The notes under the pieces were generated by a model. It saw only the letters and a list, made by a program, of their open reading frames with translations, did not search any database and had not been told where the DNA came from. DNA of 26,950 bases from a virus, in the IMG/VR virus record IMGVR_UViG_3300005929_000095, positions 1 to 26,950 of that record. One strand, 5' to 3'. A program made the translations under genes and the position numbers. Within the stretch, counting starts at the first letter, position 1; every line of letters begins with the position of its first letter. Below, in pieces: positions 170 through 21,444 of the stretch.

Positions 170-1387
170 ATGGACATAGGCTTTATTGGTGTGGGCAAGC
201 TCGGCATGCCCTGTGCAGAAGCAATTGCAGCAAAAGGGCATTCGGTTACAGGATATGATATTGCTAAGGTCTGTAGTGATACTGTAGATGTCGTAGACAC
301 TATAGGCGAATGTGTTGTAGGCAAGGATGTAGTATTTGTAGCAGTGCCTACCCCGCATGATCTCGAGTACGACGGTAATGCACCTTCGAGCCATCTACCA
401 CCTAAAGACTTTAGCTATACAATTGTCAAGGAAGTCTTGGAAGAAGCTAACAAGTACATGAATAAAGATCAGCTTCTTGTGCTTGTATCAACTGTGCTTC
501 CTGGTACTACGCGAGACCAATTTGTTGACTTAGTAGGTAATACTCGTTTTGTGTATAATCCTTACCTTATTGCCATGGGCAGTGTAAGTTGGGACATGGT
601 GAATCCAGAGATGATTATGATTGGTACAGAAGACGGCGAGGAAACAGGTGACGCAAAACAGCTGGTCGATTTTTATAAGACTGTAATGGACAACGATCCT
701 CGCTACGTTGTTGGTACCTGGGACGAATGTGAATGTATCAAAGTGTTTTACAATACCTTTATCTCTACAAAGATTGGTCTTGTTAATATGATACAAGATG
801 TTGCAGTAAAACAAGGCAACATCGATGTAGACGTAGTAACTCAAGCACTTGCGAATTCTAGTATGCGTATTATGAGCCCACAGTATATGACAGCAGGCAT
901 GGGTGACGGTGGTGGCTGCCATCCCCGCGATAATATTGCCTTAAGTTATCTTGCTGAAAAGTTAGATTTAGGGTATGACTTGTTTTCCTCGGTGATGACA
1001 GCCAGAGAAGTACAAGCAAAAAATCTAGCAGAAGAACTAGTCAAGCATGCAGCGCTCAATAACATGCCGATCTATATTCACGGCAAAGCATACAAGCCAA
1101 GAGTTCCTTATCTAGACGGTAGTTACAGTTTGCTAGTAGGGCACTATTGTGAGCAAGCAGGACATTCGCCCACATACATTGATCCGTACACCGGCGATGA
1201 CTTCCAACCAACTGCTCCGGGGGTATTTTTAATGGCACACTCTGCAGAGGTTACATACGAATACACAGGCATGACAGCTAGAGACGAATTGTATTGCTCG
1301 ATCCCGCCTTTCAGTGTTATAATAGACCCATGGCGTAAGATGTCTTCTAGCGTAAGCACAGTTATACATTATGGAAACACGAGGTAA
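170..1387 (+). CDS. UDP-glucose/GDP-mannose 6-dehydrogenase family protein
   Basis: This 405-residue protein resembles NAD-dependent nucleotide-sugar dehydrogenases, which oxidise a UDP- or GDP-hexose twice to the uronate. Near the N-terminus MDIGFIGVGKLGMP carries the Rossmann GxGxxG loop. VSTVLPGTT and YNPYLIAMGS follow where the family has its STVxPGT and NPE/xF loops. ECIKVFYNTF matches the conserved Lys/Asn helix, and GGGCHPRD matches the GGxCxPKD catalytic-cysteine motif. The C-terminal third is shorter and more divergent than in typical enzymes, so the sugar substrate is uncertain. The start is set by AGGAGA at 160-165. The stop is directly followed by the next ATG (TAAATG), so the genes are translationally coupled. 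It is divergent from a DegT-like aminotransferase, a common pairing in sugar biosynthesis. Confidence 0.85.
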   Translation: MDIGFIGVGKLGMPCAEAIAAKGHSVTGYDIAKVCSDTVDVVDTIGECVVGKDVVFVAVPTPHDLEYDGNAPSSHLPPKDFSYTIVKEVLEEANKYMNKDQLLVLVSTVLPGTTRDQFVDLVGNTRFVYNPYLIAMGSVSWDMVNPEMIMIGTEDGEETGDAKQLVDFYKTVMDNDPRYVVGTWDECECIKVFYNTFISTKIGLVNMIQDVAVKQGNIDVDVVTQALANSSMRIMSPQYMTAGMGDGGGCHPRDNIALSYLAEKLDLGYDLFSSVMTAREVQAKNLAEELVKHAALNNMPIYIHGKAYKPRVPYLDGSYSLLVGHYCEQAGHSPTYIDPYTGDDFQPTAPGVFLMAHSAEVTYEYTGMTARDELYCSIPPFSVIIDPWRKMSSSVSTVIHYGNTR

Positions 1388-3307
1388 ATGATTTACGATA
1401 TTATCTACATAGGCGAAGATAGCAGCGAGTGGAGAATTCTTAAATCAAGATTTCCAACAGCTAAAAAAGCCAGCTCGCTTGAAAAAGCACAAAAGATGAC
1501 TTTTACAAAAATGTTTTGGGTAGTGACTCCTGACGTCATTGTGTGTGATGATTTTGATTTTTCTTTTGAGCCTGACGAATGGAGTAAAGAGTATACTCAC
1601 GTATTTAAGAACGGTGAGTACTATGACGGAATTATTCTGTGCAACAAACGTGCCAACATTTCTAAGAAAGAGTTCGAGTACCGTTTTTATAGAAACAAGA
1701 AAGAAATCGACATTCAAGCAAGTATACCAAAACCCTATGAGATCTTTACCGTAGACTCGTACGAGGATTACTGCGAAGCGTATGAAAACAGTTCGACTAG
1801 TATGTTTTGGATGGTACCTAGTGATGTCGAAGTTGTAAGTGATTTTGACTTCTCATATAGAGTTGCTAAATGGGACGAACAGTTTCATCTTGTATTCAAG
1901 AACGGAAATTATTACGACGGTGTAGTACTTTGTACCAAACAGTCCAAACTTTCTAAGAACGAAATTGATTATAGATTTTATAGAAACAAGAAAGAAATCG
2001 ACATTCAAGCAAGTATGCCAAAGCCCTATGATATTTTTTATGCTGACGGGTATGACGACTATAAACGTGCACTTGAACAAAGCACAACAAAAATGTTTTG
2101 GTTGGTTTGGAACGACGTTGATATTCTAGACGAGTTTGATTTTTCGTTTCAGCCGGACGAAGCAAGTAAGAATTATGTTCATGTGTTTAAAAACGGCGAG
2201 TACTACGACGGCATTATTCTATGCAGCAGAGACTCAGAAATTACTCAGCGAGAAATTGATTATAGATTTTATAGAAACAAGAAAGAAATCGACATTCAAG
2301 CAAGTATGCCAAAGCCCTATGATATTTTCAACATAAACACTTACGAAGATTATCAGAATGCTCTTGAGAAGTCCAAGACGGATATGTTCTGGATAATCTG
2401 GCCGGGAATTAAAGTTAACGATGACTTCGACTTTAACTGGTATTTTTCGCATCACAATAGTTACGACAGAAAACAAAATCATGCATTTAAGAACGGCAAG
2501 TACTTCGACGGTATAGTACTTGCTAGCAAGCATGCACCAATAACCCGCCGAGAAGTTGAATTTCGTTTTGTAATAAACAGAAAAGAAGTTGACTACTGTG
2601 CAAGCATGCCGAAGCCGTATGATATTGTGTTCATAAGCTATAAGGAACCAAACGCAGAAAAGAATTACCATGCGTTGTTAGAAAGGTTTCCTCGAACAAA
2701 ACGTGTACACAACGTTAAAGGCATACACAATGCCCATATCAAAGCAGCAGGGATTGTCGATACTGATATGTTCTGGGTAGTAGACGGCGACGCCGAGATT
2801 GAAAAAGATTTCAATTTTGATTACCAAGTAGCTCATTGGGATAAAGACTGTGTACACGTATGGCGCAGCAAAAATCCTGTAAATGACTTGACTTACGGCT
2901 ACGGAGGTGTTAAACTATTACCCACAGAGCTGACAAAGAATGTTGATATTAATTCAACAGACATGACAACCAGCATAAGTTACAAGTTTAAAGCAGTACC
3001 GGAGGTGTCAAATGTAACCGCGTTCGATACAGACCCGTTTTCAACATGGCGCAGTGCTTTTAGAGAGTGTGCCAAACTAGCAAGCAGCGTAATACGAGGA
3101 CAGATAGATGACGAAACAAAAGAAAGGCTTGACAAATGGTGTAACTCCGATGAACGCCGTTCGAGTCAAGGGGCCTATGCAAGACGAGGCGCTATACACG
3201 GTCGTGAATTTGGGCTTTCTATTGAGTCTAGCGTTCAGTTGGGCAAGATAAACGACTTCGAGTGGCTGTACGAAAGATTTTTAGAGGAGAACAAAACTAG
3301 CGAATGA
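1388..3307 (+). CDS. Protein of tandem glycosyltransferase-like (GT-A-type) modules
   Basis: This 639-residue cytosolic protein has five related modules. Each contains an MFW core followed by a strand and a DFDFS/DFNFD block. The MFW cores lie at residues 42, 139, 236, 333 and 461. The first four are spaced exactly 97 residues apart. Only the last core has an acidic DxD-like site (DGD, 466-468). The equivalents in the first four are TPD, PSD, WND and WPG. Modules 1 and 5 also keep an N-terminal strand (YDIIYIG, YDIVFIS) that resembles a nucleotide-sugar-binding Rossmann edge. I infer a GT-A glycosyltransferase domain at the C-terminus preceded by non-catalytic copies, perhaps for binding. The family is not certain. 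It lies between a nucleotide-sugar dehydrogenase and a radical SAM gene. An acgagg ribosome-binding site precedes the ATG by 3 nt. The stop overlaps the next start as ATGA. Confidence 0.5.
   Translation: MIYDIIYIGEDSSEWRILKSRFPTAKKASSLEKAQKMTFTKMFWVVTPDVIVCDDFDFSFEPDEWSKEYTHVFKNGEYYDGIILCNKRANISKKEFEYRFYRNKKEIDIQASIPKPYEIFTVDSYEDYCEAYENSSTSMFWMVPSDVEVVSDFDFSYRVAKWDEQFHLVFKNGNYYDGVVLCTKQSKLSKNEIDYRFYRNKKEIDIQASMPKPYDIFYADGYDDYKRALEQSTTKMFWLVWNDVDILDEFDFSFQPDEASKNYVHVFKNGEYYDGIILCSRDSEITQREIDYRFYRNKKEIDIQASMPKPYDIFNINTYEDYQNALEKSKTDMFWIIWPGIKVNDDFDFNWYFSHHNSYDRKQNHAFKNGKYFDGIVLASKHAPITRREVEFRFVINRKEVDYCASMPKPYDIVFISYKEPNAEKNYHALLERFPRTKRVHNVKGIHNAHIKAAGIVDTDMFWVVDGDAEIEKDFNFDYQVAHWDKDCVHVWRSKNPVNDLTYGYGGVKLLPTELTKNVDINSTDMTTSISYKFKAVPEVSNVTAFDTDPFSTWRSAFRECAKLASSVIRGQIDDETKERLDKWCNSDERRSSQGAYARRGAIHGREFGLSIESSVQLGKINDFEWLYERFLEENKTSE
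1511..2683 (+). repeat. Four tandem 291-bp coding repeats inside the glycosyltransferase-like gene
   Basis: The MFW codons recur at 1511, 1802, 2093 and 2384, an exact 291-bp period. The fourth unit is stretched to about 300 bp by a 3-codon insertion. A 41-nt block starting at 1685 is identical in the first three units. Between units 2 and 3 the identity extends over 77 nt (1961-2037 and 2252-2328). Other parts of the units have diverged strongly. This indicates recent duplication or gene conversion in the conserved block. Confidence 0.9.
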
Positions 3308-4353
3308 GCTATCAAGACATTCCATTTGAGGATATTACGAGCTTAGGTCAGCAAACACTATTAGATACAAACCTTTTTACAGTGTCGTGGATATTAGCCC
3401 GATTCTGTAATTATGCTTGTTCCTACTGCTGGCCTTATGCTCGTACAAGCATTCCGGATCACCGTCCTTTAGAAGTCTACAAACAAACTATAGACGAAAT
3501 CAAAAGTCAAGCAAGAGCCAACGGTTTTACAGATTTTCACTTCTCTTTCTCAGGCGGCGAGCCCACAGCATACAAACACTTCGGCGAACTCATAGAACAC
3601 TATGCAGATGATAACAATCCGGGTTATCAAAGTATTCACATGACTACAAACATGTCGCCGGGCAGCAAATGGTGGAAGAAATGGCTGGCCGTTACTGATA
3701 CGTTAGACAGGCGCAGTATCACAGCCAGCTTTCACGGAGAGTTTGCCAACGAGCAAGAGTTTGGTGACAAGTGTTTGCAGCTACAGCGAGCAGGTGTGTA
3801 CGTCACAATTAATCAGGTAATGGTTCCGGATTTATTTGACGAATACTACTCGAGGTGCAAACGTTTTGCAGATAGAGGCATAAACGTCACGTTAAAGCCT
3901 CAGAGCGACCCTACAGCAAGTTTTGTTGTGTCGGGCTACTCAGAGTCCCAGCGAGAGTTACTTCAAATTGGATTTCCACAAAAATACGAAGGCGAGGCTC
4001 TGCCGCAAGTTAGACTAGAAGACAGCCAGGGCAATAAATATTACATTGACCAAGCAGAGCGGTTTAACGCATTTGGGTTTAACAAGTTCCAGGGTTGGGA
4101 TTGTAACGCAGGATACCAGAGCTGTATAATCAGAGAGCCCGGCGGCGAAGTCAAGCGTTCGTATAGCTGTCACGATCAACCACTAGGAACTATTGACAAC
4201 GGCTTTACGCTGTTTCCTAGTGCACAGCCTTGTATAACACCGACGTGTGTAAGTTCAGCAGATTCAAAAATACCCAAGGTAAAGAATGAAAGTAGAAATA
4301 GCAGACGTATTGTTCTGGATGGACGCGATCAGGAACTCAGAGGACCGATATAG
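3304..4353 (+). CDS. Radical SAM protein with C-terminal SPASM/twitch-like cysteines
   Basis: This 349-residue protein has the radical SAM cluster motif CNYACSYC (C35, C39, C42), which binds the [4Fe-4S] cluster that cleaves S-adenosylmethionine. SGGEP follows at 83-87, matching the SAM-amino-group-binding GGEP motif. A later TTNMSPG segment fits a barrel strand. C-terminal cysteines 267, 274, 289, 310 and 315 follow an FQGWDC element and could bind an auxiliary cluster, as in SPASM/twitch enzymes. The same FxGWxC element occurs in two other radical SAM proteins of this window (12480-13538 and 13531-14418), so the three are probably paralogues. The start overlaps the previous stop as ATGA. 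The 3' end runs 68 nt into the methyltransferase gene, an unusually long overlap. The substrate is unknown. Confidence 0.9.
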   Translation: MSYQDIPFEDITSLGQQTLLDTNLFTVSWILARFCNYACSYCWPYARTSIPDHRPLEVYKQTIDEIKSQARANGFTDFHFSFSGGEPTAYKHFGELIEHYADDNNPGYQSIHMTTNMSPGSKWWKKWLAVTDTLDRRSITASFHGEFANEQEFGDKCLQLQRAGVYVTINQVMVPDLFDEYYSRCKRFADRGINVTLKPQSDPTASFVVSGYSESQRELLQIGFPQKYEGEALPQVRLEDSQGNKYYIDQAERFNAFGFNKFQGWDCNAGYQSCIIREPGGEVKRSYSCHDQPLGTIDNGFTLFPSAQPCITPTCVSSADSKIPKVKNESRNSRRIVLDGRDQELRGPI

Positions 4354-4885
4354 GACTCTTGAAAGTTTTTGGAAGGGACAAGTAAGATCTAAGGTCTGGT
4401 TAGTAGAACATCTCGAAAAGATGCTATGGCCGCCTGCTGATATTGTTATACACGGAGGATGGAACGGGGTATTAGCTAGCCTGCTATTTAATAGTGAAAT
4501 AGACATCAAGCGTATTAAATCGTTTGACATAGATCCTGAGTGCGAGGAAATAGCCCGCACAGTAAATATGCGGCAACACATACAAGGAAAGTTTGAAGCA
4601 GTCACATGTGATTCATTGATAGAACGGTATAACGCTAACCTTGTTATCAATACAATCTGCGAACATTTGACACAAGAAGAATACGAACGATGGCTAACGT
4701 TAACACCGCGCGGTGCACTTATAGTATTACAGAGCAATGACTTCTTCGACTGTGGCGAACATGTTCGTTGCGCAAAAGATTTGAAAGAATTCGAAAAACA
4801 GTCAGGACTGAAGATAGTCTACAGTGACGAGTTAGAAACTCAAAAGTACACAAGATTTATGATAATTGGATTCAGAGATGTTTAA
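4286..4885 (+). CDS. Class I SAM-dependent methyltransferase-like protein
   Basis: This 199-residue protein has the layout of a small Rossmann methyltransferase. IVIHGGWNGVLASLL near residues 53-67 resembles the glycine-rich SAM-binding loop. KSFDIDPECEEIA follows, with an acidic residue at the end of strand 2 as expected for ribose binding. LVINTICEHL resembles the post-motif strand. An N-terminal helix and a C-terminal strand pair complete the fold. The target cannot be told. It starts at an ATG preceded by aaggtaaag, 68 nt inside the end of the upstream radical SAM gene. Its stop overlaps the next start by 8 nt (ATGTTTAA). Lying between two radical SAM genes, it probably works on the same pathway, which is inference. 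Confidence 0.7.
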   Translation: MKVEIADVLFWMDAIRNSEDRYRTLESFWKGQVRSKVWLVEHLEKMLWPPADIVIHGGWNGVLASLLFNSEIDIKRIKSFDIDPECEEIARTVNMRQHIQGKFEAVTCDSLIERYNANLVINTICEHLTQEEYERWLTLTPRGALIVLQSNDFFDCGEHVRCAKDLKEFEKQSGLKIVYSDELETQKYTRFMIIGFRDV

Positions 4886-5951
4886 ATTTACAGAGCTTGA
4901 AGATATACATTTTGAGATAACAAACAAATGCCAAGCGGCGTGCCCTATGTGTTCGCGCAATCATCACGGCGGCCAGATTAATCCGCTCATAAAGAACCAA
5001 GCCTGGACAATAGAAGATTTTAAAACAATAGCAACTCCAGAGGTATTAACCCAAATCAAAGGGTTTTATATGTGCGGCAATTTTGGCGACCCTATTATTA
5101 ACACAGATCTTGTTGATATGATTGAATATGCAGCTCGTATTAATCCTGATCTAAACATTCGTATTCATACAAACGGTAGTGCAAGGACAATAGCTTGGTG
5201 GGAGCGTTTAGCGAAGGCAATGCCCAAACAGCATAATGTAATCTTTGCATTAGATGGCTTAGAGGACACGCACCACCTTTATCGCATAGGTACAGATTTT
5301 AATCGCATAATTAAAAACGCTCGCGCATTTATGAAAGCTGGCGGCAGAGCCGAATGGTGTTTTATAAAGTTCAAGCACAACGAGCATCAAGTGGACCTAG
5401 CAAGGGAAAGAGCTGAAAAAGAAGGCTTTGCTATGTTTACAGAAAAGAATAGTTCACGTTTCATCGGAAGCCCAAAGTTTCCAGTATTCAACACCCAAGG
5501 TAACACTGAGTATTATTTAGAACCGCCTAGTATGTCTGAATTGTCGTACATTACCAATGACATGGTTAGGAACTATAAAGATGTTCTTGCTGATGTTAAG
5601 ATCGATTGTTACGTGAAACATACCAAAGAAATCTATATAGATGCTTATTGTAACGTGTTTCCCTGCTGTTTCCTTGCAAGTACGCCTTATAATTATGCTC
5701 CGGATACAGATATTACTAAAGAAATAAGAACTCGCATGTTAGAGCAATATCGAGAACTAAAGCAAACATTGGGTAACACAAGTGCACTAGAGCATTCGGT
5801 TAAAGATATTGTTAGTACTGAAAGTTGGCAAACAGCGTGGGACTACTATTGGACGCAGAACAAGTTGATAACCTGTGCACGAACATGCGGGCAAGTACCA
5901 AATGTACCTAAACCCAAAGACCAGTTTATCAAAGTAGTAAATTTTGAATGA
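4878..5951 (+). CDS. Radical SAM protein, SPASM-like, distinct subtype
   Basis: This 357-residue protein begins with FEITNKC and carries CQAACPMC (C18, C22, C25), the radical SAM cluster motif. YMCGNFGDPI at 65-73 stands where other members have GGEP. IHTNGS at 96-101 is the usual next strand. C-terminal cysteines 244, 258, 263 and 264 lie in a YIDAYCNVFPCC segment, and 333 and 337 follow. This matches a SPASM-type auxiliary-cluster domain in style. Known SPASM enzymes often modify peptides, but the substrate here is unknown. I chose the ATG at 4878 over an in-frame TTG 12 nt upstream. The 8-nt overlap with the methyltransferase (ATGTTTAA) recurs at other junctions in this window. Confidence 0.85.
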   Translation: MFKFTELEDIHFEITNKCQAACPMCSRNHHGGQINPLIKNQAWTIEDFKTIATPEVLTQIKGFYMCGNFGDPIINTDLVDMIEYAARINPDLNIRIHTNGSARTIAWWERLAKAMPKQHNVIFALDGLEDTHHLYRIGTDFNRIIKNARAFMKAGGRAEWCFIKFKHNEHQVDLARERAEKEGFAMFTEKNSSRFIGSPKFPVFNTQGNTEYYLEPPSMSELSYITNDMVRNYKDVLADVKIDCYVKHTKEIYIDAYCNVFPCCFLASTPYNYAPDTDITKEIRTRMLEQYRELKQTLGNTSALEHSVKDIVSTESWQTAWDYYWTQNKLITCARTCGQVPNVPKPKDQFIKVVNFE

Positions 5952-7041: not shown

Positions 7042-7590
7042 TTGCTCTAAAAACAGGTCCTGGTCAAACTGCCATACGGTTTGATCAGTGCCTCGGTAGT
7101 TCACTTCTTTTACAGGTTTCATAACGCCAGTCTTTTCCAAGGCAGGTCCGAATATTTTGTGCACTCTTTGTTGAGTTCCGGCCTCTAACTCATTTGAAGT
7201 AATGTACAGTTTGGCATCAGGTGGACACCAGTCTATACATGCAGGAATAAGAAATTGTGCTGTTGGGTTTTGATGCTTAGTAATAACATAGATGCCCCTA
7301 AGGCCATTAGCGTAAGTCATTCCTTTTAATCTGTCTGTAAACACGCAAGTTCTTGCAGCTATGCGGTAACTGTTCGATTCCATAACGTCGTCAAACGAAT
7401 GTGCAACTACAGAGCCTATAGCTTCGCCTCTATAATACAAGAGCCAAGTTTGTTTCTCGCGTTCGTTTCTAAAACAATCCACTAACATTCTTTGTGAAGA
7501 ATTGTTAGAGAATCCTCTGCGTCCTGCTTCTTTGTAAAAGTCAGATAAGTTAAGTTCTTGCGTCCAGGGTACTATCTCAAAATCACTCAT
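7018..7590 (-). CDS. Possible GNAT-type N-acetyltransferase-like protein
   Basis: This is a 190-residue soluble protein. The segment WLLYYRGEAIGSVVAHSFD (49-67) looks like the GNAT strand pair in which a substrate-side strand leads into 'GxxIGxVxxH'. LRGIYVITKHQNPTAQFLIPA (97-117) could be the strand and acetyl-CoA loop, but no clear R/QxxGxG/A motif is seen. The call is therefore weak. I chose ATG 7590 over an in-frame GTG at 7599; ATG 7590 overlaps the upstream stop by 8 nt. It is last in a minus-strand operon of oxygenases and a dehydrogenase. Its 3' end overlaps the convergent TauD-like gene by 24 nt, leaving no room for a separate terminator. Confidence 0.45.
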   Translation of the reverse strand: MSDFEIVPWTQELNLSDFYKEAGRRGFSNNSSQRMLVDCFRNEREKQTWLLYYRGEAIGSVVAHSFDDVMESNSYRIAARTCVFTDRLKGMTYANGLRGIYVITKHQNPTAQFLIPACIDWCPPDAKLYITSNELEAGTQQRVHKIFGPALEKTGVMKPVKEVNYRGTDQTVWQFDQDLFLEQLDFAGRW

Positions 7591-9951: not shown

Positions 9952-9956
9952 AAAAC

Positions 9957-9964
9957 TACTTATC
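9957..9964 (-). promoter_or_regulatory. Late-promoter-like octamer (GATAAGTA)
   Basis: The minus strand reads GATAAGTA, then 5 nt, then the ATG at 9951. It is one mismatch from NATAAATA and has the same close spacing to the start as three better matches in this window. It is the likely promoter of the 9951-7018 operon, but the match is imperfect. Confidence 0.3.
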
Positions 9965-9980
9965 TTCAGTCTGTTCAGAG

Positions 9981-9988: not shown

Positions 9989-10037
9989 AATTGTGTAAAT
10001 TATGACTATATACTAGCAACAAATAATGGAGAAATAA

Positions 10038-11463: not shown

Positions 11464-11489
11464 CAAAAACGTTAAAGGATTTATTTAAA

Positions 11490-12472: not shown

Positions 12473-12479
12473 CACCGTC

Positions 12480-14418: not shown

Positions 14419-15686
14419 ACGTATGGTTTAAACTCAGGGTTGACTTCTTCAAAGGGACCCTGGTTTCTACTGGCATCTAGGTTGTGGTTAAAGTCTACGC
14501 AGTCTTGCCAATACTCACTTAGGTCTGTCGATTTGAGAAAGTTTATGTTATCTTGTATTTGCTGTAGTGTTACTTTTTGCAATAGCTCTGAGCTCTGTAC
14601 AAACGGATATGTTAACACTTCGGTTTTCATTTCTTCTAGACGTACTATTGTACGCTCTTTTAGCTCGTTGGGCAAGACTTGTGCAGACAATGCTCTAGGA
14701 TAATTTACTCTGTGACTGTAAAATACAATACCCATCTCGTTGAGGAAATAGTCAATAACCTTGTCTATTTGCAGAATGTTGTTAGCTTGCACAGTAAATG
14801 CACCAACAATTCTGCTCACTGTTGGTATTGTCTTCATAATTTTTATGTTATCTTCGACTTCCTTAAACTTGCCATTGCCGCGTATATATTCGTAAACGTC
14901 GTGTATACCGTCTATGCTCACGTTTACAGCTACGCTTCTAAACTTGGGCCAGTACTCGTGTATGGTACGGCCTTTTCCTATGCCCGTCTTGGTGCCGTTA
15001 GTCGCGTACTTTAGCTCTATATTGTGTCCCCATGGCGCTAGCATGTCTAAGATCTTATAGTGATTTGGATCCATCAGCGGTTCGCCACCTGCGAACTCCA
15101 CTCTGCGGAAGTAGGGAAGCAGTTTTTCAAAGCTAGTCCACCAATTATCCGTGTCGTCGAAGGGTCCTATGTACTGCCCGGGCTTGTCTACTAGTGCATC
15201 TACAGTGGGGATGAGGTAGTTATTTTCTTTTTTGTAAAACTTAGTTACCTGGTCCCAGTCCTTCCAGCTGGTACTGTCCAAAGGATTGCACATTCTGCAC
15301 TTGAGGTTACAGAGATTGTTGATTTTAATTTCCATAGTAGGAAACTCAAAGGGCATTGTGTAGTCGTCTTCCAGTGCGTCTAGTGCATCAGGGTACAAGT
15401 TAGCCCGTGCTTCTGGTATAACACCTGCTATGTGACGCTGTCGTAAGCTCTCGACGCCTTGATCTTCGAGATCGAAACACGGTTTGCACACATCTGGCCG
15501 TTCGTTGTTCAGTACTTGCCGACGAACTTCCTGCATGCTTTTGTTGTTCCACGCTTCTTCTAACGATTCTTCTTGTATCCAGCCTATGGGTTGACTACGA
15601 CAGCATACTTTGATCGCTCCGTCTTCGCGTGTGGCTAATCCTGTAAAAGGGTGCATGCAGAATGTGCATGAGTTAGGTTTGTTCAT
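14415..15686 (-). CDS. Radical SAM protein with N-terminal auxiliary cysteine domain
   Basis: This 423-residue protein has the same domain order as 10038-11450. A cysteine-rich N-terminus comes first: CTFC (C7, C10), KVCC (C28, C29) and DVCKPC (C67, C70). The radical SAM motif CNLKCRMC follows (C126, C130, C133), then FAGGEPLM. MEIKINN before the motif and YATNGT after it fit the barrel strands. I start it at the ATG at 15686, because the 26 upstream in-frame residues are non-conserved in style and run through the divergent promoter region. CATAAATA ends 5 nt before this ATG and no Shine-Dalgarno is seen. It heads the operon of three radical SAM genes and is divergent from X'. Confidence 0.87.
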   Translation of the reverse strand: MNKPNSCTFCMHPFTGLATREDGAIKVCCRSQPIGWIQEESLEEAWNNKSMQEVRRQVLNNERPDVCKPCFDLEDQGVESLRQRHIAGVIPEARANLYPDALDALEDDYTMPFEFPTMEIKINNLCNLKCRMCNPLDSTSWKDWDQVTKFYKKENNYLIPTVDALVDKPGQYIGPFDDTDNWWTSFEKLLPYFRRVEFAGGEPLMDPNHYKILDMLAPWGHNIELKYATNGTKTGIGKGRTIHEYWPKFRSVAVNVSIDGIHDVYEYIRGNGKFKEVEDNIKIMKTIPTVSRIVGAFTVQANNILQIDKVIDYFLNEMGIVFYSHRVNYPRALSAQVLPNELKERTIVRLEEMKTEVLTYPFVQSSELLQKVTLQQIQDNINFLKSTDLSEYWQDCVDFNHNLDASRNQGPFEEVNPEFKPYV

Positions 15687-15691
15687 GAAAT

Positions 15692-15699
15692 TATTTATG
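15692..15699 (-). promoter_or_regulatory. T4-type late-promoter octamer (CATAAATA)
   Basis: The minus strand reads CATAAATA, 5 nt before the ATG at 15686 of the triple radical SAM operon. The transcript would start at or beside the ATG if T4 rules apply. It lies 13 nt from a plus-strand TATAAATA, making a compact divergent promoter pair. Confidence 0.5.
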
Positions 15700-15712
15700 C
15701 GCCGGCACTGCT

Positions 15713-15720
15713 TATAAATA
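15713..15720 (+). promoter_or_regulatory. T4-type late-promoter octamer (TATAAATA)
   Basis: This is the exact T4 late-promoter consensus TATAAATA, 16 nt before the ATG at 15737. A purine-rich aaaaagagg lies between them at 15722-15730. It probably drives the plus-strand operon 15737-19385. It is the best promoter match in the window. Confidence 0.6.
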
Positions 15721-15736
15721 GAAAAAGAGGATGCAT

Positions 15737-16420
15737 ATGAAACAAGACTTAGTAAACAAAGCAAAAAACTGGAGTGCCGAGCGTGCAGACCAGTTTCACA
15801 ACAATATTCCTAGGGTAAACCCAGTTAAAGGCAGCTATATCTGGCTGCCGCAGAACAATGGGTTTTATTATTGGGGGAAAGATGCTGTTGATTTTTATCG
15901 TCACGACGGCCTGGTGTTTTCTGTACAGAAAAAATGGTATGAGTCTGATTGGAAGTGTCACAAAAGGCTCTACGAGTACAGTATCGAATCTGGAGAATTT
16001 AGGATTTCAGAGCCGATGTACTGCGAACCAGTGACTATTAACGGCGAAGAATGGACCTACACAGTAATCCGTCATCCAGGAGACGACATAGGATACTCTT
16101 CTCATTACAAGGGACTAGTGAAAGACACTTATACATACACTAAACATTGGATTGATGACATAACTGTGCTGATAAAGTACTTTGATAAGCTAGACGAAGA
16201 ATTCGGATGTCAGTACCCTTCAAAAGTTAAGATGACAAACCGTCTCAAAGATGATCAAGGATTCTTTTGGAAAGATATCAAGTTTTGGGACAACAGCTTC
16301 GAGAGTTTTTATAACAAGCATGTGGGTGAAGTGCAGAAGGCAATTAATCGAGCGGAACACAACGGTCAAGATATAGGATGGGAACTAGCAGACTATGCAA
16401 AAGATCAATGGGCTAAGTGA
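15737..16420 (+). CDS. Unknown protein X', paralogue of protein X
   Basis: This is a 227-residue soluble protein. It shares with 11490-12248 the blocks YIW, FYRHDG, a LYEYSIESGEF helix, a WTYTVIRHPGDDIG segment that looks like a hinge, FFWKDIKFWDNS, and a final AKDQWA helix. The family is not recognised. The order again resembles a phosphotransferase-like fold, but no HxD...N catalytic loop is visible. The ATG at 15737 is preferred over one at 15731, because the aaagagg ribosome-binding site would touch the earlier ATG. The next gene begins 26 nt inside its end, almost the same overlap and place as between X and Y (25 nt). An oxygenase gene has been inserted between X' and Y'. Confidence 0.5.
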   Translation: MKQDLVNKAKNWSAERADQFHNNIPRVNPVKGSYIWLPQNNGFYYWGKDAVDFYRHDGLVFSVQKKWYESDWKCHKRLYEYSIESGEFRISEPMYCEPVTINGEEWTYTVIRHPGDDIGYSSHYKGLVKDTYTYTKHWIDDITVLIKYFDKLDEEFGCQYPSKVKMTNRLKDDQGFFWKDIKFWDNSFESFYNKHVGEVQKAINRAEHNGQDIGWELADYAKDQWAK

Positions 16421-16982
16421 TTATGTTGTAGCATTGTCTCAAGAAGTGCCCGAGGTAGTGCAAAGCAAGTCAGTCCTAGATGTTGAATGTACAGAGAACA
16501 GTTTTGTGCAAAAAGAAATAGACAAAGACGCAGTTAACCCTGAGCTGATTACTTGGCTTAACAGCTTAGGCTTAGAGATTAAACTAGCAGAGATGTTTTA
16601 TTGCATGCCTGGATCAAAGGTGCCTGATCATTTTGATGACATAGAACCAGAAGGCTGCTGCAAGCTAATTTGGACATATGGCAGTAGCAGTGTTCCTTTG
16701 GTTTGGTACAGCGTATATGATCAAGATAAGGTTGTTTATGAGAATAATTCTATAGGCGGGTATTACCTTACCTGTGAGTCGGACAACTATCAATTCGCTG
16801 AGTCTTCAATAATTAAAAACCCTAGTCTAATTAGAGTAGATAAACTGCACGGAGTAGAAAATAACACTGACGAACCCTGGTGTGCAGTTACACTGGTGTT
16901 GAAAGAAACAGATAGAAACGAGCACAGGGCCAACTGGAAACAGCTAATAGAAAAACTACCAATTGAGAGTGATAATGGATAA
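16395..16982 (+). CDS. Fe(II)/2OG-oxygenase-like protein with Trp in place of the 2OG Arg
   Basis: This 195-residue protein has YCMPGSKVPDHFDD giving the proximal H79-F-D81, and LIRVDKLHGVEN giving the distal H152. The following strand EPWCAVTLVL matches the strand that carries the 2OG-binding Arg in its relative at 9367-9951 (TPRVAVSLQL), but has W162 in that position. It may therefore bind a different co-substrate or be non-catalytic. LIWTYGSSSVPLVWY and the YYLTC strand complete a small cupin-like barrel. The only early start is the ATG at 16395, 26 nt inside X'. The end overlaps Y' by 8 nt (ATGGATAA). Confidence 0.6.
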   Translation: MQKINGLSDYVVALSQEVPEVVQSKSVLDVECTENSFVQKEIDKDAVNPELITWLNSLGLEIKLAEMFYCMPGSKVPDHFDDIEPEGCCKLIWTYGSSSVPLVWYSVYDQDKVVYENNSIGGYYLTCESDNYQFAESSIIKNPSLIRVDKLHGVENNTDEPWCAVTLVLKETDRNEHRANWKQLIEKLPIESDNG

Positions 16983-17232
16983 AAATTGTATTGTAAAGTA
17001 TACTGTATTTGAAGCAGGCGAGCCGTTAATCAGTGGTGAAATCCCTTTACACCTAGTACAAGCGGGTAGAGGCGGCGACAGCTCTTTAGAAGGCATGTGG
17101 TTAGCCGAATGGGGGCTGGACGTCAAAGGCTATCCGGGAAAGTATCGCAGGATCGAGGTATACTTTGACGATTTTACGTTTGTGATAAGAGACGATGCCC
17201 CGTTCCATAGACAAGAAGAGGATTATAAATGA
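16975..17232 (+). CDS. Small protein Y', paralogue of protein Y
   Basis: This 85-residue protein is related to 12224-12472: KYTVFEAGEPLISGEIP corresponds to NYTVSKDGNKLASGSVP, and both then have a hydrophobic helix, GG, and GMWL/GVWL. The C-terminal half of Y' is longer, with an IEVYFDDFTFVIRDD strand pair; Y instead has a SLCSDC segment. There is no signal peptide or membrane segment, and the function is unknown. I chose the ATG at 16975 rather than an in-frame TTG at 16963. It overlaps the upstream gene by 8 nt and the downstream pseudokinase-like gene by 4 nt (ATGA). Confidence 0.55.
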   Translation: MDKNCIVKYTVFEAGEPLISGEIPLHLVQAGRGGDSSLEGMWLAEWGLDVKGYPGKYRRIEVYFDDFTFVIRDDAPFHRQEEDYK

Positions 17233-17921
17233 AGTACGAATATTATTACAACAATACTCCTGAACACGGCTTAGTAAGAAATAATCTGGTTTACACTAGT
17301 CTTATATCCGAAGACAAGAAACGTTTTGTGCAGTGGTTTTATAATGATAAGATATATCATAAAGACCAGAACCAAGTAATAGATTCTGAGTTAATGGAAG
17401 AAAAATGGAATAGAGAAATTTACTTCTTGAAATTGATGCAAAAGAACTATCCTAATCTAGTTCCGGAGACAGATTTTATTGATCACGAACGAAAGGAACT
17501 GTACTTAAAAATAGATGGCGTTGATTTTTGGCAACAGTGCTTAGATGCTGAAAAGAGCTTTGAAGAGGTGTTGCCAGACTGGGAAGGTCAAATGTTAGAG
17601 ATACTACAGGCGCACAAAGATTTAGGCTTTTATAAGTATAGCCTGCACCCAAGTAGTTATTTCTTAATAGACGGCCAGCTAAAGAGTATTAATTACTTTT
17701 TCTGTCATGACAATAGTGAAGCAGTACACCCTATGCAAATATTCCAAAGCCATATCAGTCACGACAGACAAGCCAAACTTCTAGAATATTTTGAAAAAGA
17801 AGGATTATCCTGGGAGAGCACACTAACGTGGACTGCTTATCAGCTCATTGCGTTAGAAAGTTTTCGGTTTAACTATCCAGACAGTTTTATTGACAGAGCA
17901 AGACAGATTTATGTTTCTTAA
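17229..17921 (+). CDS. Probable pseudokinase / phosphotransferase-fold protein
   Basis: This is a 230-residue protein. Its order matches a compact kinase/aminoglycoside-phosphotransferase fold: N-terminal strands, a helix with Glu (WNREIYFLKLM, about 60-70), a strand pair, a hinge (LYLKIDGVDFW, 91-101), then a helix and a loop LQAHKDLGFYKYSLHPSSYFL (126-146). That loop aligns with the 'hxxGxxHgDLHPgNil' catalytic loop. The catalytic Asp is Ser138 and the Asn is Ser143. The metal-binding Asp of the following 'iDF' strand is Asn155 (INYFF). All three catalytic positions are lost, so I expect no phosphotransfer. A scaffold or binding role is possible, and the fold call is by pattern only. A good agaagagg ribosome-binding site precedes the ATG by 8 nt. 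Confidence 0.5.
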   Translation: MKYEYYYNNTPEHGLVRNNLVYTSLISEDKKRFVQWFYNDKIYHKDQNQVIDSELMEEKWNREIYFLKLMQKNYPNLVPETDFIDHERKELYLKIDGVDFWQQCLDAEKSFEEVLPDWEGQMLEILQAHKDLGFYKYSLHPSSYFLIDGQLKSINYFFCHDNSEAVHPMQIFQSHISHDRQAKLLEYFEKEGLSWESTLTWTAYQLIALESFRFNYPDSFIDRARQIYVS

Positions 17922-18606
17922 AGATTTGAATCACACTATAAGTACAGAGTCGTTAGCAGACTACTTAGAGGATGTTAATTGGGACGATACAAATAGAGCT
18001 AACCTTAATCACCCAACAGGGCATCGGCTATACGACCCTTACGAAGTTAATCAAGAGTGGAAGGGTACTCCGTTTGAAGATTTATTGATAGAGTTAGAAC
18101 AGTATTCTATTGGCGAAGCAAGACTAATTAAGCTAGGTCCTGGCACCTGCTATAGGTCGCACGCAGATATTGATGATCGTATACATTTGAACCTCCTGTC
18201 AAACGACCAATGTTATCTGATTAACCTCATAACAAACGAAATGCATAAGACCAGCGCTGATAATAAGATCTATTATATGGACGGAAGCTATGTTCACACT
18301 GCTGCAAATTTTGGATCAAGCCCAAGAGTACAGTTAGTTGCAAGAGTTAGATTATCTAATTACGACGACACTGGTCTTGAACGAATCGAACTTGTGTTTT
18401 CGAACAGACCTTATAATCTGCGTTATAACATTGATAATTCTGTGTCTGTGTTAATGTCACAATTGATCAAAGAGAAGAACATGAAGTTTATCGAGTTTGC
18501 TGATGACCGCATTGTAGTAGAAGTAAACGACGAGTCATTAGATAGACTGAATAAAGAATTAAACAAGTTAGAAGTACAATACAAAGTAAAAAGGGGTAAT
18601 AAATGA
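17911..18606 (+). CDS. Fe(II)/2-oxoglutarate oxygenase with extra C-terminal domain
   Basis: This is a 231-residue protein. CYRSHADIDDRIHLNL supplies the proximal H84-A-D86 and the following strand. YYMDGSYVHTAANFG supplies the distal H129, and SSPRVQLVARVRL supplies R139. All active-site residues are present. After the barrel, residues from about 150 on (LERIELVFSNRPYNL and a helical tail rich in Lys/Glu) are not part of the catalytic core and may bind substrate. I chose the ATG at 17911 over an in-frame TTG at 17890; it overlaps the pseudokinase-like gene by 11 nt. It ends in ATGA overlap with the next oxygenase gene. The substrate is unknown. Confidence 0.75.
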   Translation: MFLKDLNHTISTESLADYLEDVNWDDTNRANLNHPTGHRLYDPYEVNQEWKGTPFEDLLIELEQYSIGEARLIKLGPGTCYRSHADIDDRIHLNLLSNDQCYLINLITNEMHKTSADNKIYYMDGSYVHTAANFGSSPRVQLVARVRLSNYDDTGLERIELVFSNRPYNLRYNIDNSVSVLMSQLIKEKNMKFIEFADDRIVVEVNDESLDRLNKELNKLEVQYKVKRGNK

Positions 18607-19385
18607 TACGAGGCGTTAACAAAAAACCGTATATTAATCTAGACGAGCATATCGACGTTGAAGGGTTTTCAAAACTGCACTATAAGATTTGTCGAGGAAT
18701 TGTGCAATCTGAATATAAGAAAGAAGGAAACATGGTAAAGCCGGGCGGATGTGATGGCGCTTTTGAATTACCTATTAAGCCTCTATACCTTGCACTAGAA
18801 GAATATCACGCATTGCCTTACGATCACGAAATAAGAGTAGAAGGTCGTGCTATTGGGGAATACGACAATCGAGATCAGTTCATGCTGTTTTTGAAGTTAG
18901 CACTAGGAGCATTTGATCCATATCAGTTTGTGTTTCTTAAGACAGAAGCAGGCGGATGGGATTCACGATTCGAAGAAAAGACGTGGACACCAGATGCACA
19001 ATATTTTCCAGAATTAAAACAATGGTTGGAAAACTTAGTCGAACAGAATATATTAACGCACTTGGGCAGAGTTATCTTTTTTAAAGCAGAACATAATTGT
19101 TGGATGCCGCTGCACAGGGACCTAATATTGCCAGACGAGCATGACTACTTTGATCACAGACACGAGTTTATTCATATGCGTACTTGTTTGGATAAGCCGT
19201 TTTATATATGGGATCCTGAAACAGACGAAAAGGTATTAACCGAAAGTCGAGCAACGTTCTTTAACGATCAGGACTGGCACGCCGGTGGTACTTCTCCTGT
19301 TCAGACTTTTAGCTTGCGCATAGATGGTAAGTTTACAGATGAGTTTCGTGAAAAGATCGGACTAGGAAACGTTGATAGTTATTAA
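18603..19385 (+). CDS. Fe(II)/2-oxoglutarate oxygenase-like protein (HRD type)
   Basis: In this 260-residue protein WMPLHRDLILP gives the proximal H171-R-D173, followed by HRHEFIHMRTCLDKPF. FFNDQDWHAGG gives the distal H226, and TFSLRIDGKFTDEFR gives R239. It is a paralogue of 20578-21444. They share PYIxLD near the start, F/YDPY, HRxE before a long strand, FFNxxxWH, and a terminal DGKFTDEFR/EGKFTDEFR block. An N-terminal helical domain of about 150 residues may define substrate. aagggg at 18591-18596 is a good ribosome-binding site. It is last in the plus-strand operon. Its TAA shares the TTAA sequence with the stop of the convergent oxygenase gene. Confidence 0.75.
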   Translation: MIRGVNKKPYINLDEHIDVEGFSKLHYKICRGIVQSEYKKEGNMVKPGGCDGAFELPIKPLYLALEEYHALPYDHEIRVEGRAIGEYDNRDQFMLFLKLALGAFDPYQFVFLKTEAGGWDSRFEEKTWTPDAQYFPELKQWLENLVEQNILTHLGRVIFFKAEHNCWMPLHRDLILPDEHDYFDHRHEFIHMRTCLDKPFYIWDPETDEKVLTESRATFFNDQDWHAGGTSPVQTFSLRIDGKFTDEFREKIGLGNVDSY

Positions 19386-20008
19386 ATTGCAATCACTTGT
19401 ATCGTATACTTAGGATCTGGTCCTAAGTTACTTCCGCCGTGTGGAGTCCAGAAATTAAAAGACCACACGTCGCCTTGTTTTCCTTCAGAAATGATTTTAT
19501 TTCCATACCATAAATGATGCCATGGTTTTATATCTTCGGGAAGTATTGCTAGGCGTTTAATGTTCTTTATTTTTTCTTCGGGAATTTCAAAGTCGTCGAC
19601 GAATGCATCTACTGTGTCAACGTGTTGAGGTATACAGCATCCGGGATCTATTCTAGTCACCCAAATCTTGTACTGAGTAAACATCGATGATAGTTTGCTG
19701 TATAGATAGCTCAGATCAGCACCTAATTGATTAGCGTTAATGATTTGCCATTTCACGTTACTTTTGTCAGCAAACGATGTTGTATGAGTTATTCCTTCGA
19801 TCTCGTTGTACATAGGATTTTCTCTAGCCATTTTGGACATTGTTTCGAAGTCTCTAATAGTAATAGAACTCCAGTCAAACTGTTTAATTGATTCTAGCAG
19901 TTCGTTATTAATAACGCTGTTCCATAATCCGATATACACTGGATTGTGTACACCTTTTTCTTTTAAAAAAACGAATGTTCTGTCGTCTGCCGAGCTTATA
20001 ATTTTCAT
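19382..20008 (-). CDS. Fe(II)/2OG-oxygenase-like protein (Lys-type)
   Basis: In this 208-residue protein VTRIDPGCCIPQHVDT gives H129-V-D131. SFNFWTPHGGSN gives the distal H190. The terminal strand PDPKYTIQVIAI has K200 where most 2OG oxygenases of this fold have Arg. Its neighbour at 20005-20568 has the same Lys (ADKYVMHIVGI), the same PGxCxPxHxD block and a related IxxGNK turn, so the two are tandem paralogues. Lys can bind the 2OG carboxylate in some family members, so it may still be active. It starts with an ATGA overlap on its neighbour and could also be driven by GATAAATA at 20033-20040. It is convergent with 18603-19385. Confidence 0.68.
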   Translation of the reverse strand: MKIISSADDRTFVFLKEKGVHNPVYIGLWNSVINNELLESIKQFDWSSITIRDFETMSKMARENPMYNEIEGITHTTSFADKSNVKWQIINANQLGADLSYLYSKLSSMFTQYKIWVTRIDPGCCIPQHVDTVDAFVDDFEIPEEKIKNIKRLAILPEDIKPWHHLWYGNKIISEGKQGDVWSFNFWTPHGGSNLGPDPKYTIQVIAI

Positions 20009-20568
20009 TCTATACCTACAATATGCATAACGTATTTATCGGCGAATCCACAGTTAAACCCTAGGTGATACTCGTCCCATTTATCCCAGCGGTATATTGT
20101 GCCTTGAGAGATCATATGGAAGCATTTATTGCCTACTATAAACACTTGCCCTACTTTGCCAGTTTCTAAGAAGATTGTATATCTAACGAGATTGCCTTCA
20201 GCTGCCCATTTGTCTGCTTCGGTTTCTATGTCCCAGTGATAAGGTACACACTTGCCTGGCCGTATAGCACTGACCCACACGTTCTTTGGTGTTACGTTTA
20301 ACTGCTCTGCAACCTTTGTTACATGCGAATCGTTAAAATGTTCGCCTGGATAAAAGTTAATCCATTCCACAGAATCATTAGTAAAGTAGCCGCCGTGTTG
20401 CCACTGTTGCATCATTTGATCAACTGACTGTTGTATATTGTCGCTAAGAGTAACATCTGTGCCATACGGCTTTTCCGCAGTTTTGTAGTGGCCGTGGTCA
20501 ATGTTTAACTCACTTACCAGAGCTTCGCAATCGAACCTTTCTTTACTTGTGTGATTATTTTCGTTCAT
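20005..20568 (-). CDS. Fe(II)/2OG-oxygenase-like protein (Lys-type)
   Basis: In this 187-residue protein VSAIRPGKCVPYHWDI gives the proximal H111-W-D113. WDEYHLGFN gives the distal H168, and FADKYVMHIVGI places K178 at the 2OG-carboxylate position. QVFIVGNKCFHMISQGTIYRW forms the central strands. It is the tandem paralogue of 19382-20008. I start it at the ATG at 20568. An upstream in-frame GTG at 20598 would make its 5' end overlap the divergent oxygenase gene. The two divergent start codons lie only 9 nt apart, so both genes share one very short control region. The substrate is unknown. Confidence 0.68.
   Translation of the reverse strand: MNENNHTSKERFDCEALVSELNIDHGHYKTAEKPYGTDVTLSDNIQQSVDQMMQQWQHGGYFTNDSVEWINFYPGEHFNDSHVTKVAEQLNVTPKNVWVSAIRPGKCVPYHWDIETEADKWAAEGNLVRYTIFLETGKVGQVFIVGNKCFHMISQGTIYRWDKWDEYHLGFNCGFADKYVMHIVGIE
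20033..20040 (-). promoter_or_regulatory. Internal late-promoter-like octamer (GATAAATA)
   Basis: The minus strand reads GATAAATA inside the last codons of the upstream oxygenase gene. It lies 24 nt before the ATG at 20008. A taggt sequence lies between them. It may give separate expression of the second oxygenase. The octamer overlaps a coding strand, so chance is possible. Confidence 0.35.
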
Positions 20569-20573
20569 AAATA
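20566..20573 (+). promoter_or_regulatory. T4-type late-promoter octamer (CATAAATA)
   Basis: CATAAATA ends 4 nt before the ATG at 20578. It overlaps the start codon of the divergent minus-strand gene (complement of 20566-20568). No Shine-Dalgarno is visible for the plus gene, so its transcript may be almost leaderless. Confidence 0.5.
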
Positions 20574-20577
20574 TTGT

Positions 20578-21444
20578 ATGCTCACTATTAACGGACACCC
20601 TTATATTACATTAGACAAGTATTTAAACATTCCAAAATTCCTAGATTTGAGAAATGACTTTGAGTTTCTAGTATCTAACAGTTGGGAACACATCAGAACG
20701 GGTGTATGGAACGCAGGCGGACATTCCCCGCACGACTATTATAACGCACCTGAGATCTTTAGAGAAAAGGGATTGCTGTATTACGTGTATCGTCAAGCAA
20801 ACGAAGACCGTAAAACAGACGAAAAACTTAATCAGCATCTAAAACATTTTGAAGACAAAGATGATTTACACGGGTTGTCAAGATACTTGAAGCTTCGTTA
20901 CGATGCATACGATCCGTATAACATTCTTAATATACGTAAAACGTTCGGTCCTTATTATGCTGCTGACTCTTACATATTTACCGAGGAAGACTGGGCAAAG
21001 TATTATTGGGAAGAATATATGGAAGAGTATCCGGCGATAAAAGATTTTATTATAAACGATCTGCCATTTGACGAAATCGGAGTGGTTACTTTGTTTTACA
21101 ATGAGCATTTTGTAGTGCAAAACTTTCATCGAGACTTTAACTACTTTCCTTATGAAAAAGGCGATAAGCCAGAAACATTTCCGCACAGGCAAGAATTGAT
21201 TTGGTTACGTTTTGATTTAGACAGACCTTTTTGTTTGTTTGAATTAGATATAGAGAATGGGGATGTAATAAAAGAATATCCTGTTGAAGGATATTCGGCG
21301 TTTTTTAATCATCATAACTGGCACGGTTGTTTTGAAAGCAATCCTTATACGTCTATTACTTTAAAAGTAGAAGGCAAGTTCACCGATGAATTTAGAAAAC
21401 TCATCGGTGTTGATAATCTAGAATACTATTATTACGAGGATTAA
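20578..21444 (+). CDS. Fe(II)/2-oxoglutarate oxygenase-like protein (HRD type, Lys variant)
   Basis: In this 288-residue protein VVQNFHRDFNYFP gives H184-R-D186, FFNHHNWHGCF gives the distal H249, and SITLKVEGKFTDEFR places K263 where the paralogue at 18603-19385 has Arg. The paralogy extends over the whole length (HPYITLD, YDPYN, PHRQELIWLR). The N-terminal part is longer and rich in aromatic residues. The start at 20578 is chosen because conserved PYIxLD follows at once; a GTG at 20551 would run through the divergent gene start. It is a single-gene unit between a minus operon and the propeller-repeat gene, and its last codons form one arm of the hairpin at 21433-21460. A role in modifying the neighbouring fibre-like protein is only a guess. 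Confidence 0.72.
   Translation: MLTINGHPYITLDKYLNIPKFLDLRNDFEFLVSNSWEHIRTGVWNAGGHSPHDYYNAPEIFREKGLLYYVYRQANEDRKTDEKLNQHLKHFEDKDDLHGLSRYLKLRYDAYDPYNILNIRKTFGPYYAADSYIFTEEDWAKYYWEEYMEEYPAIKDFIINDLPFDEIGVVTLFYNEHFVVQNFHRDFNYFPYEKGDKPETFPHRQELIWLRFDLDRPFCLFELDIENGDVIKEYPVEGYSAFFNHHNWHGCFESNPYTSITLKVEGKFTDEFRKLIGVDNLEYYYYED

Follow-up and report, generated by a model that had tools for sequence, protein, structure and literature searches.

A recurring island of radical SAM and 2-oxoglutarate oxygenase-type genes between tail-fibre genes of probably T4-like phages

The virus record IMGVR_UViG_3300005929_000095 (26,950 bases, here called the window) carries a dense set of genes encoding radical S-adenosylmethionine (rSAM) proteins and 2-oxoglutarate (2OG) oxygenase-type proteins. 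This set is a real, widespread and recurring phage accessory island, and the window is a fragment of it. The island sits between tail-fibre genes of phages that are probably T4-like. A sequence-only reading of the same DNA had described a phage-like accessory block, which was right and can now be sharpened to this genomic site. The island is an uncharacterised form of a kind of phage cargo that is already known. Clusters rich in rSAM genes have been described in phages, and the combined core with 2OG genes may be new. Gene calls were taken from the list of open reading frames (ORFs) between positions 170 and 21,444, where 26 genes on both strands overlap or nearly abut, with a widest gap of 86 bp.

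The set was recovered from several anchors. The rSAM protein of window gene g17 identified 65 viral-contig loci at 60-100% identity, among which kinship is present and 46 are non-redundant. Families were counted by clustering over the 65 loci. An rSAM protein with an N-terminal twitch domain (N-twitch) occurs in all 65, the rSAM type of g15 and g16 in 64, and a PP-loop protein that the window does not encode (family c005) in 51. Further anchor scans covered the best 80 loci each. With c005 as anchor, 79 of 80 loci carry three or more rSAM genes and 70 carry two or more 2OG-type genes. With the pseudokinase encoded by g21, the counts are 76 and 77 of 80, and the two anchor sets have contigs in common. 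Overlaps with the first set were then removed, which concerned near-identical overlaps only; the c005 loci L028 and L042, both of the first set, were dropped before counting. At least three rSAM genes remain in 62 of 63 c005 loci and 53 of 57 pseudokinase loci, and at least three rSAM together with at least two 2OG genes in 52 of 63 and 51 of 57, respectively.

A structural gene (c048) served as an anchor blind to the enzymes. Among its 80 loci, 37 extend 8 kb downstream, where rSAM genes are found in 21, 2OG genes in 28, either in 32 and both in 17. One flank of c048 holds 32 rSAM and 55 2OG genes (87 genes in 359 kb, 36 loci) versus no rSAM and one 2OG gene in 179 kb on the opposite flank (18 loci). 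Such anchor counts favour the island because the rSAM and 2OG profiles derive from island proteins, and subfamilies elsewhere would be missed. Pfam matches show a similar concentration. In record G014 (186 kb), 14 of 16 rSAM matches fall in a 43-kb island (13 over the cut-off) and two outside (one over), and the island-derived profiles place 15 rSAMs inside and one outside. All 22 rSAM matches of the 117-kb record G021 (locus L058), 21 of them over the Pfam cut-off, lie between 48 and 105 kb. The PF05118 matches (two in G014, three in G021) fall in the same stretches. Across 30 related records the number of Pfam rSAM matches ranges from 5 to 22, with 19 in the 57 kb of G018 (L053). By anchor, flank and Pfam counts, rSAM and 2OG genes thus occur together far above background, which was the check proposed with the initial prediction. 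Among environmental viruses, at least 514 stretches match c005 and 435 match the pseudokinase, with contigs possibly counted repeatedly. Searches of annotated phage isolates by tblastn with seven window proteins and c005 yielded at most a few distant relatives.

The genomic site was mapped in three related records, in which gene names beyond the profile-tested ones were mostly read by eye. In G014, the island of about 43 kb is bordered by fibre families c257-c261 on one side and by the fibre c034, followed by late genes, on the other. The G021 island is bordered by c257-c261 and by a c034-like fibre (by eye), which the same late genes follow. G001 (L007) is approximately identical to window genes g04-g26. 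This record begins within the island and shows its right edge, where a counterpart of window gene g27 is followed by fibre-like genes, c034 and late genes. In locus L339, the fibres c034 and c259 are 66 bp apart and the island is missing, which makes this an empty site. Loci L269, L335 and L341 hold different cargo at the same fibre site (by eye). L269 carries transporter-like and asparagine-synthase-like genes there (8199-15364, by eye), so the fibre site is a cargo hotspot. The capsid protein Gp23 is over the cut-off in five of the 30 related records, including all four of at least 124 kb and not including the 117-kb record. Among the best 20 of 2486 records, the nearest relatives of the G014 capsid are Sinorhizobium phage Phosso (74%) and Vibrio phage 2.275.O (70%), with Xanthomonas phage XbC2 and PA5oct-like Pseudomonas phages at 67%. 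The nearest isolates in this selection have genomes of 284-469 kb.

The features of the window are as follows.

170-1387, + strand: g01, UDP-glucose/GDP-mannose dehydrogenase family (Pfam PF00984 2e-16; PHROG 9148 2.8e-93)
1388-3307, + strand: g02, repeat protein, possibly glycosyltransferase-like (weak; Glyco_transf_8C 3.4e-6, best stretch 20 residues)
3304-4353, + strand: g03, radical SAM (PF04055 6.9e-13)
4286-4885, + strand: g04, putative methyltransferase (weak; no Pfam match of its own, family members only)
4866-5951, + strand: g05, radical SAM (PF04055 1.2e-9)
5962-7041, + strand: g06, TauD family by Pfam, activity doubtful (PF02668 4.9e-13; PHROG 24590 2.2e-113)
7018-7599, - strand: g07, possible GNAT-fold acyltransferase (weak; FeeM matches in its family)
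7583-8137, - strand: g08, Asp/Arg-hydroxylase-type 2OG (PF05118 2.3e-16)
8128-8694, - strand: g09, short-chain dehydrogenase-like (weak; RmlD 0.0012, Epimerase 0.0071)
8691-9386, - strand: g10, Asp/Arg-hydroxylase-type 2OG (PF05118 5.1e-10)
9367-9951, - strand: g11, 2OG type via chained profile links (hhalign through g19)
10038-11450, + strand: g12, N-terminal twitch/SPASM radical SAM (NF033640 386 bits; PF04055 2.5e-11)
11490-12248, + strand: g13, paralogue of g18, function unassigned (hhalign to g18 100%)
12224-12472, + strand: g14, small protein (ORF)
12480-13571, - strand: g15, radical SAM (PF04055 2.9e-16)
13531-14418, - strand: g16, radical SAM (PF04055 6.6e-10)
14415-15764, - strand: g17, N-terminal twitch/SPASM radical SAM (NF033640 319 bits; SPASM at 36-96, 5.4e-8)
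15713-15720, + strand: presumed T4-type late-promoter motif TATAAATA, 18 bp before g18
15731-16420, + strand: g18, paralogue of g13 (hhalign)
16395-16982, + strand: g19, 2OG type by profile link (hhalign 94% to g10)
16963-17232, + strand: g20, small protein (ORF)
17229-17921, + strand: g21, predicted pseudokinase, a protein-kinase fold with catalytic residues replaced (AlphaFold2, Foldseek, VIA)
17890-18606, + strand: g22, Asp/Arg-hydroxylase-type 2OG (PF05118 1.4e-7)
18603-19385, + strand: g23, 2OG-like by motif alone (H171 and D173 1.00, H226 0.99 in 125 sequences)
19382-20008, - strand: g24, 2OG type by profile link (hhalign 95-96% to g10 and g22)
20005-20598, - strand: g25, 2OG type by profile link (hhalign 92-96% to g10 and g22; motif 1.00 in 200 sequences)
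20551-21444, + strand: g26, 2OG-like, g23 family (hhalign to g23)
21441-26897, - strand: g27, beta-propeller with a collagen-like end, likely a fibre (by eye), right edge of the island (Lactonase 1.8e-20)

The window genes contribute unequally to the recurring core. Over the 65 loci, the rSAM families of g05 (c002) and g03 (c010) are present in 56 and 37, and the 2OG families of g22 (c003), g23/g26 and g25 (c008) in 55, 46 and 42, respectively. The families of g04 (c004), the pseudokinase g21 (c006) and g07 (c009) follow with 54, 47 and 39. Relatives are less frequent for g02 (c014, 18 loci), g13/g18 (5), g20 (c036, 5) and g14 (c047, 4), as well as for g06, g08, g10, g11, g19 and g24 (5, 9, 12, 8, 6 and 19 loci). 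Per-gene presence counts for rSAMs include paralogue cross-matches at 20-30% identity. At 38% identity or more, g03, g05 and g15 are found in 31-33 loci versus 60-63 for g12, g16 and g17.

All six proteins predicted to be rSAM enzymes exceed the curated PF04055 cut-off (38.6-60.5 bits versus 29.5). They are assigned on this basis to the radical SAM superfamily, with cleavage of SAM by a [4Fe-4S] cluster as their predicted chemistry. The proteins g12 and g17 are full-length members of the NCBIfam family NF033640 (386.4 and 319.2 bits versus a cut-off of 170), and their SPASM/twitch domain sits N-terminally. The likeness to this family of twitch domain-containing radical SAM proteins consists of membership, and the model name carries no function. 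A role as a defence system was considered using PADLOC and rejected. The six rSAMs give only cross-matches to viperin models (best E per protein 1.4e-4 to 3.7e-13), g15 has one weak PDC-M51A match, and none was obtained for g21 or three c005 proteins.

The claim of ten 2OG-fold proteins holds in graded form. Pfam matches over the cut-off exist for four of the ten candidates, TauD for g06 and Asp_Arg_Hydrox for g08, g10 and g22, and the remaining six have no relevant Pfam match. Profile comparisons by hhalign used families enlarged with sequences from related loci. They supersede an earlier round with small families, in which g25 linked to g22 at 44-65% and g11, g19, g23 and g26 could not be placed. 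In the enlarged comparison, g24 and g25 link to all three Asp_Arg_Hydrox proteins (82-96%), and g19 links to g10 at 94%, to g22 at 21-45% and to g08 at 26-38%. The protein g11 links solely to g19 (100%) and hence to the Pfam-positive g10 through g19. The pair g23 and g26 is mutually linked at 100%, reaches 8-31% to g10 and has no Pfam match. A kinase-fold control stayed at or below 0.7%. Eight of the ten alignments, with 6 to 200 sequences each and two of them for one family, conserve the HxD motif and a distal His at 97-100%, including H79, D81 and H161 of g11 (alignment of 6) and H79, D81 and H152 of g19 (1.00, alignment of 30). In the g08 alignment (12 sequences) both His are at 100% and D108 at 75%. 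Despite its PF02668 match over the cut-off, g06 has no HxD/E iron motif and hence no TauD-type triad. The tally of predicted 2OG proteins is thus four by Pfam, of which g06 has an altered iron motif, four by profile link and two by motif. Most proteins proved to be of rSAM or 2OG types in these profile searches, and the initial assignment was not refuted.

All 26 aligned c005 sequences, taken from related loci, carry SGGADS and four cysteines that do not vary. The SGGxDS loop and the C...CxxCxxC ladder are present, with a spacing after the first Cys that exceeds the canonical eight. The canonical QueC motifs include YxQxHxxE, VPxRN and YPDC (PMC13329287). These three were not seen by eye in the c005 consensus (alignment A4). 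A comparison with an E. coli QueC profile was weak (E 2e-4, probability 45%) and spans the cysteine region. The structure model has a pLDDT of 93.7. By VIA its closest fold is QueC (Z 15.0, 180 residues, 3.9 A), followed by TilS (13.9), Cap9 (13.7) and QatC (12.8), and in Foldseek tRNA thiolases and PAPS reductases rank first. Pfam QueC gave one sub-threshold match in 12 records, and an NCBIfam scan of four c005 members gave weak matches to TilS, LarE and related families. We call c005 a QueC-like ligase fold with a probably remodelled pocket, going by the model. Its subfamily assignment is tentative because QueC topped the VIA comparison only and Foldseek favoured thiolases and PAPS reductases. 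The protein shares SGGADS, the four invariant Cys and the fold with the QueC family including Cap9 and QatC (PMC13279940, PMC13329287). It differs by the canonical motifs missing by eye and by the near scores of other PP-loop folds such as TilS. QueC relatives couple a deazaguanine to protein N-termini (PMC13279940; PMC11996544). In the cultured Vibrio phage D479 (L104:11971-16651), about 3 kb separate an N-twitch-type rSAM gene from one annotated as QueC-like. This QueC-like gene may belong to the ordinary 7-deazaguanine pathway, since the c005 profile missed it.

The g21 protein has a confident AlphaFold2 model (pLDDT 92.6) with the protein kinase TTK as best Foldseek match (5.1e-7) and a VIA Z of 13.5 to IRAK4 (190 residues, 3.2 A). 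The positions of the HRDxxxxN Asp and Asn and of the DFG Asp are Ser138, Ser143 and Asn155, invariant in 28 of 28 sequences. An active kinase was rejected, as the fold is present but the catalytic positions are replaced. We read g21 as a probable pseudokinase because the catalytic Asp and Asn and the DFG Asp are replaced. Methyltransferase, short-chain dehydrogenase and GNAT-like companions had also been proposed. Matches exist and are marginal, so that the helper identities can only be weakly suggested. Methyltransferase families match five, four and one of 27 g04 family members scanned, FeeM, which we take to have the GNAT fold, matches six of 22 g07 family members (best E 0.0097), and g09 reaches E=0.0012 with RmlD. 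No meaningful Pfam or PHROG match was found for g13 and g18, and PDB profile searches with alignments A2, A3, A4, A6 and A7 gave nothing usable.

Layout and promoters point to soluble, partly late products. The motif TATAAATA, presumably the T4 late-promoter motif, occurs as a single exact copy on either strand of the window, ahead of g18. Across the 46 non-redundant loci it precedes 12 of 190 operon-leading island genes versus none of 485 inner genes, in a test of leading genes that came after a look at all genes pooled. With 12 of its 71 copies before leaders, it has the highest such share among 56 letter permutations, against a permutation median of 1.1% (binomial p 3e-11 against that median). 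This supports late expression for some island operons, as judged from the motif. Segments resembling transmembrane helices occur in six of 1140 island proteins. Neighbouring genes of the core overlap (median -8 nt), and no small ORF in gaps is common to more than two other loci in a scan of the 65 loci that covered ORFs outside called genes.

The reading we favour, as a tentative one, is a late-expressed cargo that covalently tailors virion fibres. At least some operons would be expressed late together with virion proteins, and the soluble products would act in the cytoplasm. The enzymes might install a multi-step covalent modification on the neighbouring receptor-binding fibres. N-twitch and other rSAMs would activate unreactive C-H positions, which Asp/Arg-hydroxylase-type 2OG enzymes could then hydroxylate. 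The QueC-like ATP-dependent ligase, encoded outside the window, would add a group with the help of transferases, and the pseudokinase may be a binding or scaffold part. We infer one common substrate, its identity as the fibre and the order of the steps. Fibre tailoring is favoured because the late motifs and the adjacent fibre genes suggest that the enzymes act while virions are assembled. It is supported by the three mapped fibre-adjacent records, an rSAM block at the syntenic site of phage Phosso and the empty site of L339, as well as by the recurrence of the core from other anchors and by QueC relatives modifying protein N-termini. The dedicated biosynthetic or tailoring system of the sequence-only reading likewise goes beyond the recurring clustering by inference. 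Several observations weigh against fibre tailoring. Exact TATAAATA copies precede just 6% of leading genes, and with all island genes pooled the raw count of the motif is tenth of 56. No fibre feature tracking with the island was found, and the N-terminal Gly motif of known QueC-type protein modification was at no fibre start read by eye. Genes of glycan type differ between loci. Six of the ten window 2OG genes are outside the common core, so the composition is fluid, and the exact set of ten is not conserved, since these six have relatives in 5-19 of 65 loci. A fusion of a cold-shock domain with a 2OG-Fe(II) oxygenase (L033:17639-18469; PF00313 4e-11, PF13640 1e-9), whose family c018 is present in 13 of 65 loci, suggests that this one protein acts on nucleic acid. 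A more specific version, in which the island creates a new post-translational modification, seems distinctly unlikely. The rSAM and 2OG enzymes would build a carboxylated or nucleobase-like group, the QueC-like ligase would attach it to fibres and the pseudokinase would bind the substrate.

The fibre gap might instead be a cargo hotspot with no single pathway, where rSAM and 2OG genes accumulate because each would be of use singly or with a few partners. The other cargo of L269, L335 and L341, the wide range of rSAM matches per record, the uneven rSAM presence at 38% identity and the rarity of g06, g08, g10, g11, g13, g14, g18, g19, g20 and g24 relatives (4-19 of 65 loci) would all follow. However, three different anchors recover a shared core, even without contigs of the first set, and we place this explanation on the unlikely side. 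Alternatively, the enzymes could remodel lipopolysaccharide or capsule on the host surface at a late stage of infection and so mask receptors from superinfection. Islands contain glycosyltransferase-, epimerase-, SGNH- and sulfotransferase-like genes (mostly by eye), g01 encodes a UDP-glucose dehydrogenase, and the island of Vibrio phage K566 includes genes for a glycosyltransferase and for lipid A. For the glycosyltransferases of pelagimyophages, a surface change has been proposed (PMC7029224). Yet each glycan gene occurs in a minority of loci and membrane proteins are nearly absent, which leaves surface remodelling unlikely.

Modification of nucleic acids or nucleotides, for example with a 7-deazaguanine-like base, would fit the QueC-like fold of c005 (Z 15.0), the cold-shock/2OG fusion, QueD in two of 12 records and a QueE-like gene outside the G014 island (by eye; sub-cut-off rSAM match at 171119). 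The sole QueC Pfam match is weak and sub-cut-off, though, canonical QueC motifs are missing by eye, and late-type promoters and the fibre location point elsewhere, so we hold this to be quite improbable. Transglycosylase-based deazaguanine DNA modification was rejected, with no TGT-type match in the 12 records, all fragments. A soluble small molecule or modified peptide acting in the cell or at lysis appears very improbable. SPASM/twitch rSAM, 2OG, halogenase, AMP-ligase-like and amidinotransferase-like genes do resemble natural-product sets (several by eye), but the core families lack an exporter-like membrane protein and no precursor ORF was found among the few gaps. An exported peptide is disfavoured because the proteins are soluble, genes overlap and no small ORF is shared. 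A cluster for ribosomally synthesised and post-translationally modified peptides was rejected on the missing precursor ORF, the few gaps to hold one and the lack of exporter-like proteins. A host-derived operon was also rejected, as a single bacterial scan gave five loci at 28-34% identity to the query.

The proposal of an undescribed system may hold for the combined core and needs qualification for its rSAM part. No description of the combined rSAM and 2OG core was found in the open-licence literature, and most subscription papers are outside it. Both gene types figure among marine viral genes (PMC7150976). Campylobacter phages CP220 and CPt10 have 11 and 12 rSAM proteins, termed highly unusual (PMC2853527), compared with 22 rSAM matches in the single 117-kb record G021. 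These phages are likewise rich in rSAM, and an exchangeable block groups five of their rSAM genes with one for an amidinotransferase. The CP220 block has a possible baseplate gene at about 3 kb on its upstream side and a tail-fibre gene at about 11 kb on its downstream side. CP220 rSAMs match the island profiles c001, c002 and weakly c040, and its amidinotransferase matches c064. The CP220 stretch examined has no match to the 2OG, QueC-like or pseudokinase profiles and matches N-twitch by cross-matches only. Pelagimyophages (PMC7029224) have a large variable island in the structural region with T4-like kinship, fibres, glycosyltransferases and rSAM cassettes, as here. They differ as phages of SAR11, and the available part of that paper does not mention a 2OG-rich core. 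The cultured Vibrio phages K566 and K567 have a replaceable island (VPK566_0302 to _0314), which the authors term an anti-defence island (PMC12028318). Four genes of the K566 island have the N-twitch rSAM as best profile, and a fifth lies about 10 kb past the fourth. The 41-kb K566 stretch has no match to the island 2OG, QueC-like or pseudokinase profiles. At the syntenic position, flanked by c029 and c259/c257, Sinorhizobium phage Phosso (PV764938) carries three rSAM genes, and a fourth is nearby. They match the island profiles weakly (E 1.9e-11 to 6.7e-8), with no 2OG profile match there. The term "radical SAM" is absent from the main texts on Sinorhizobium phage AP-J-162 and Agrobacterium phage Atu_ph07. 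Because the cultured phages Phosso and K566 hold comparable blocks, the reason why some phages have so many rSAM genes can be tested. If the island decorates fibres, host recognition would be tuned through protein chemistry, beyond sequence alone.

Some further observations concern the periphery of the island. The collagen-like repeat of g27 is the product of a 33-bp tandem repeat (window 21595-21661). G021 is also rich in SGNH-like, DegT-like, AMP-ligase-like and thiolase-like genes (by eye). A tryptophan halogenase (L076:12516-14075; PF04820, 2.3e-94) is encoded far outside the island of the G014 contig, and another member of its cluster c105 lies inside the G021 island (73386-74804). A metagenome-assembled genome of Bdellovibrionales (L097:9977-14688, 18821-20278) encodes four N-twitch-family proteins and one c001 rSAM in 20 kb, and three of these four N-twitch proteins are about 43% identical to phage proteins.

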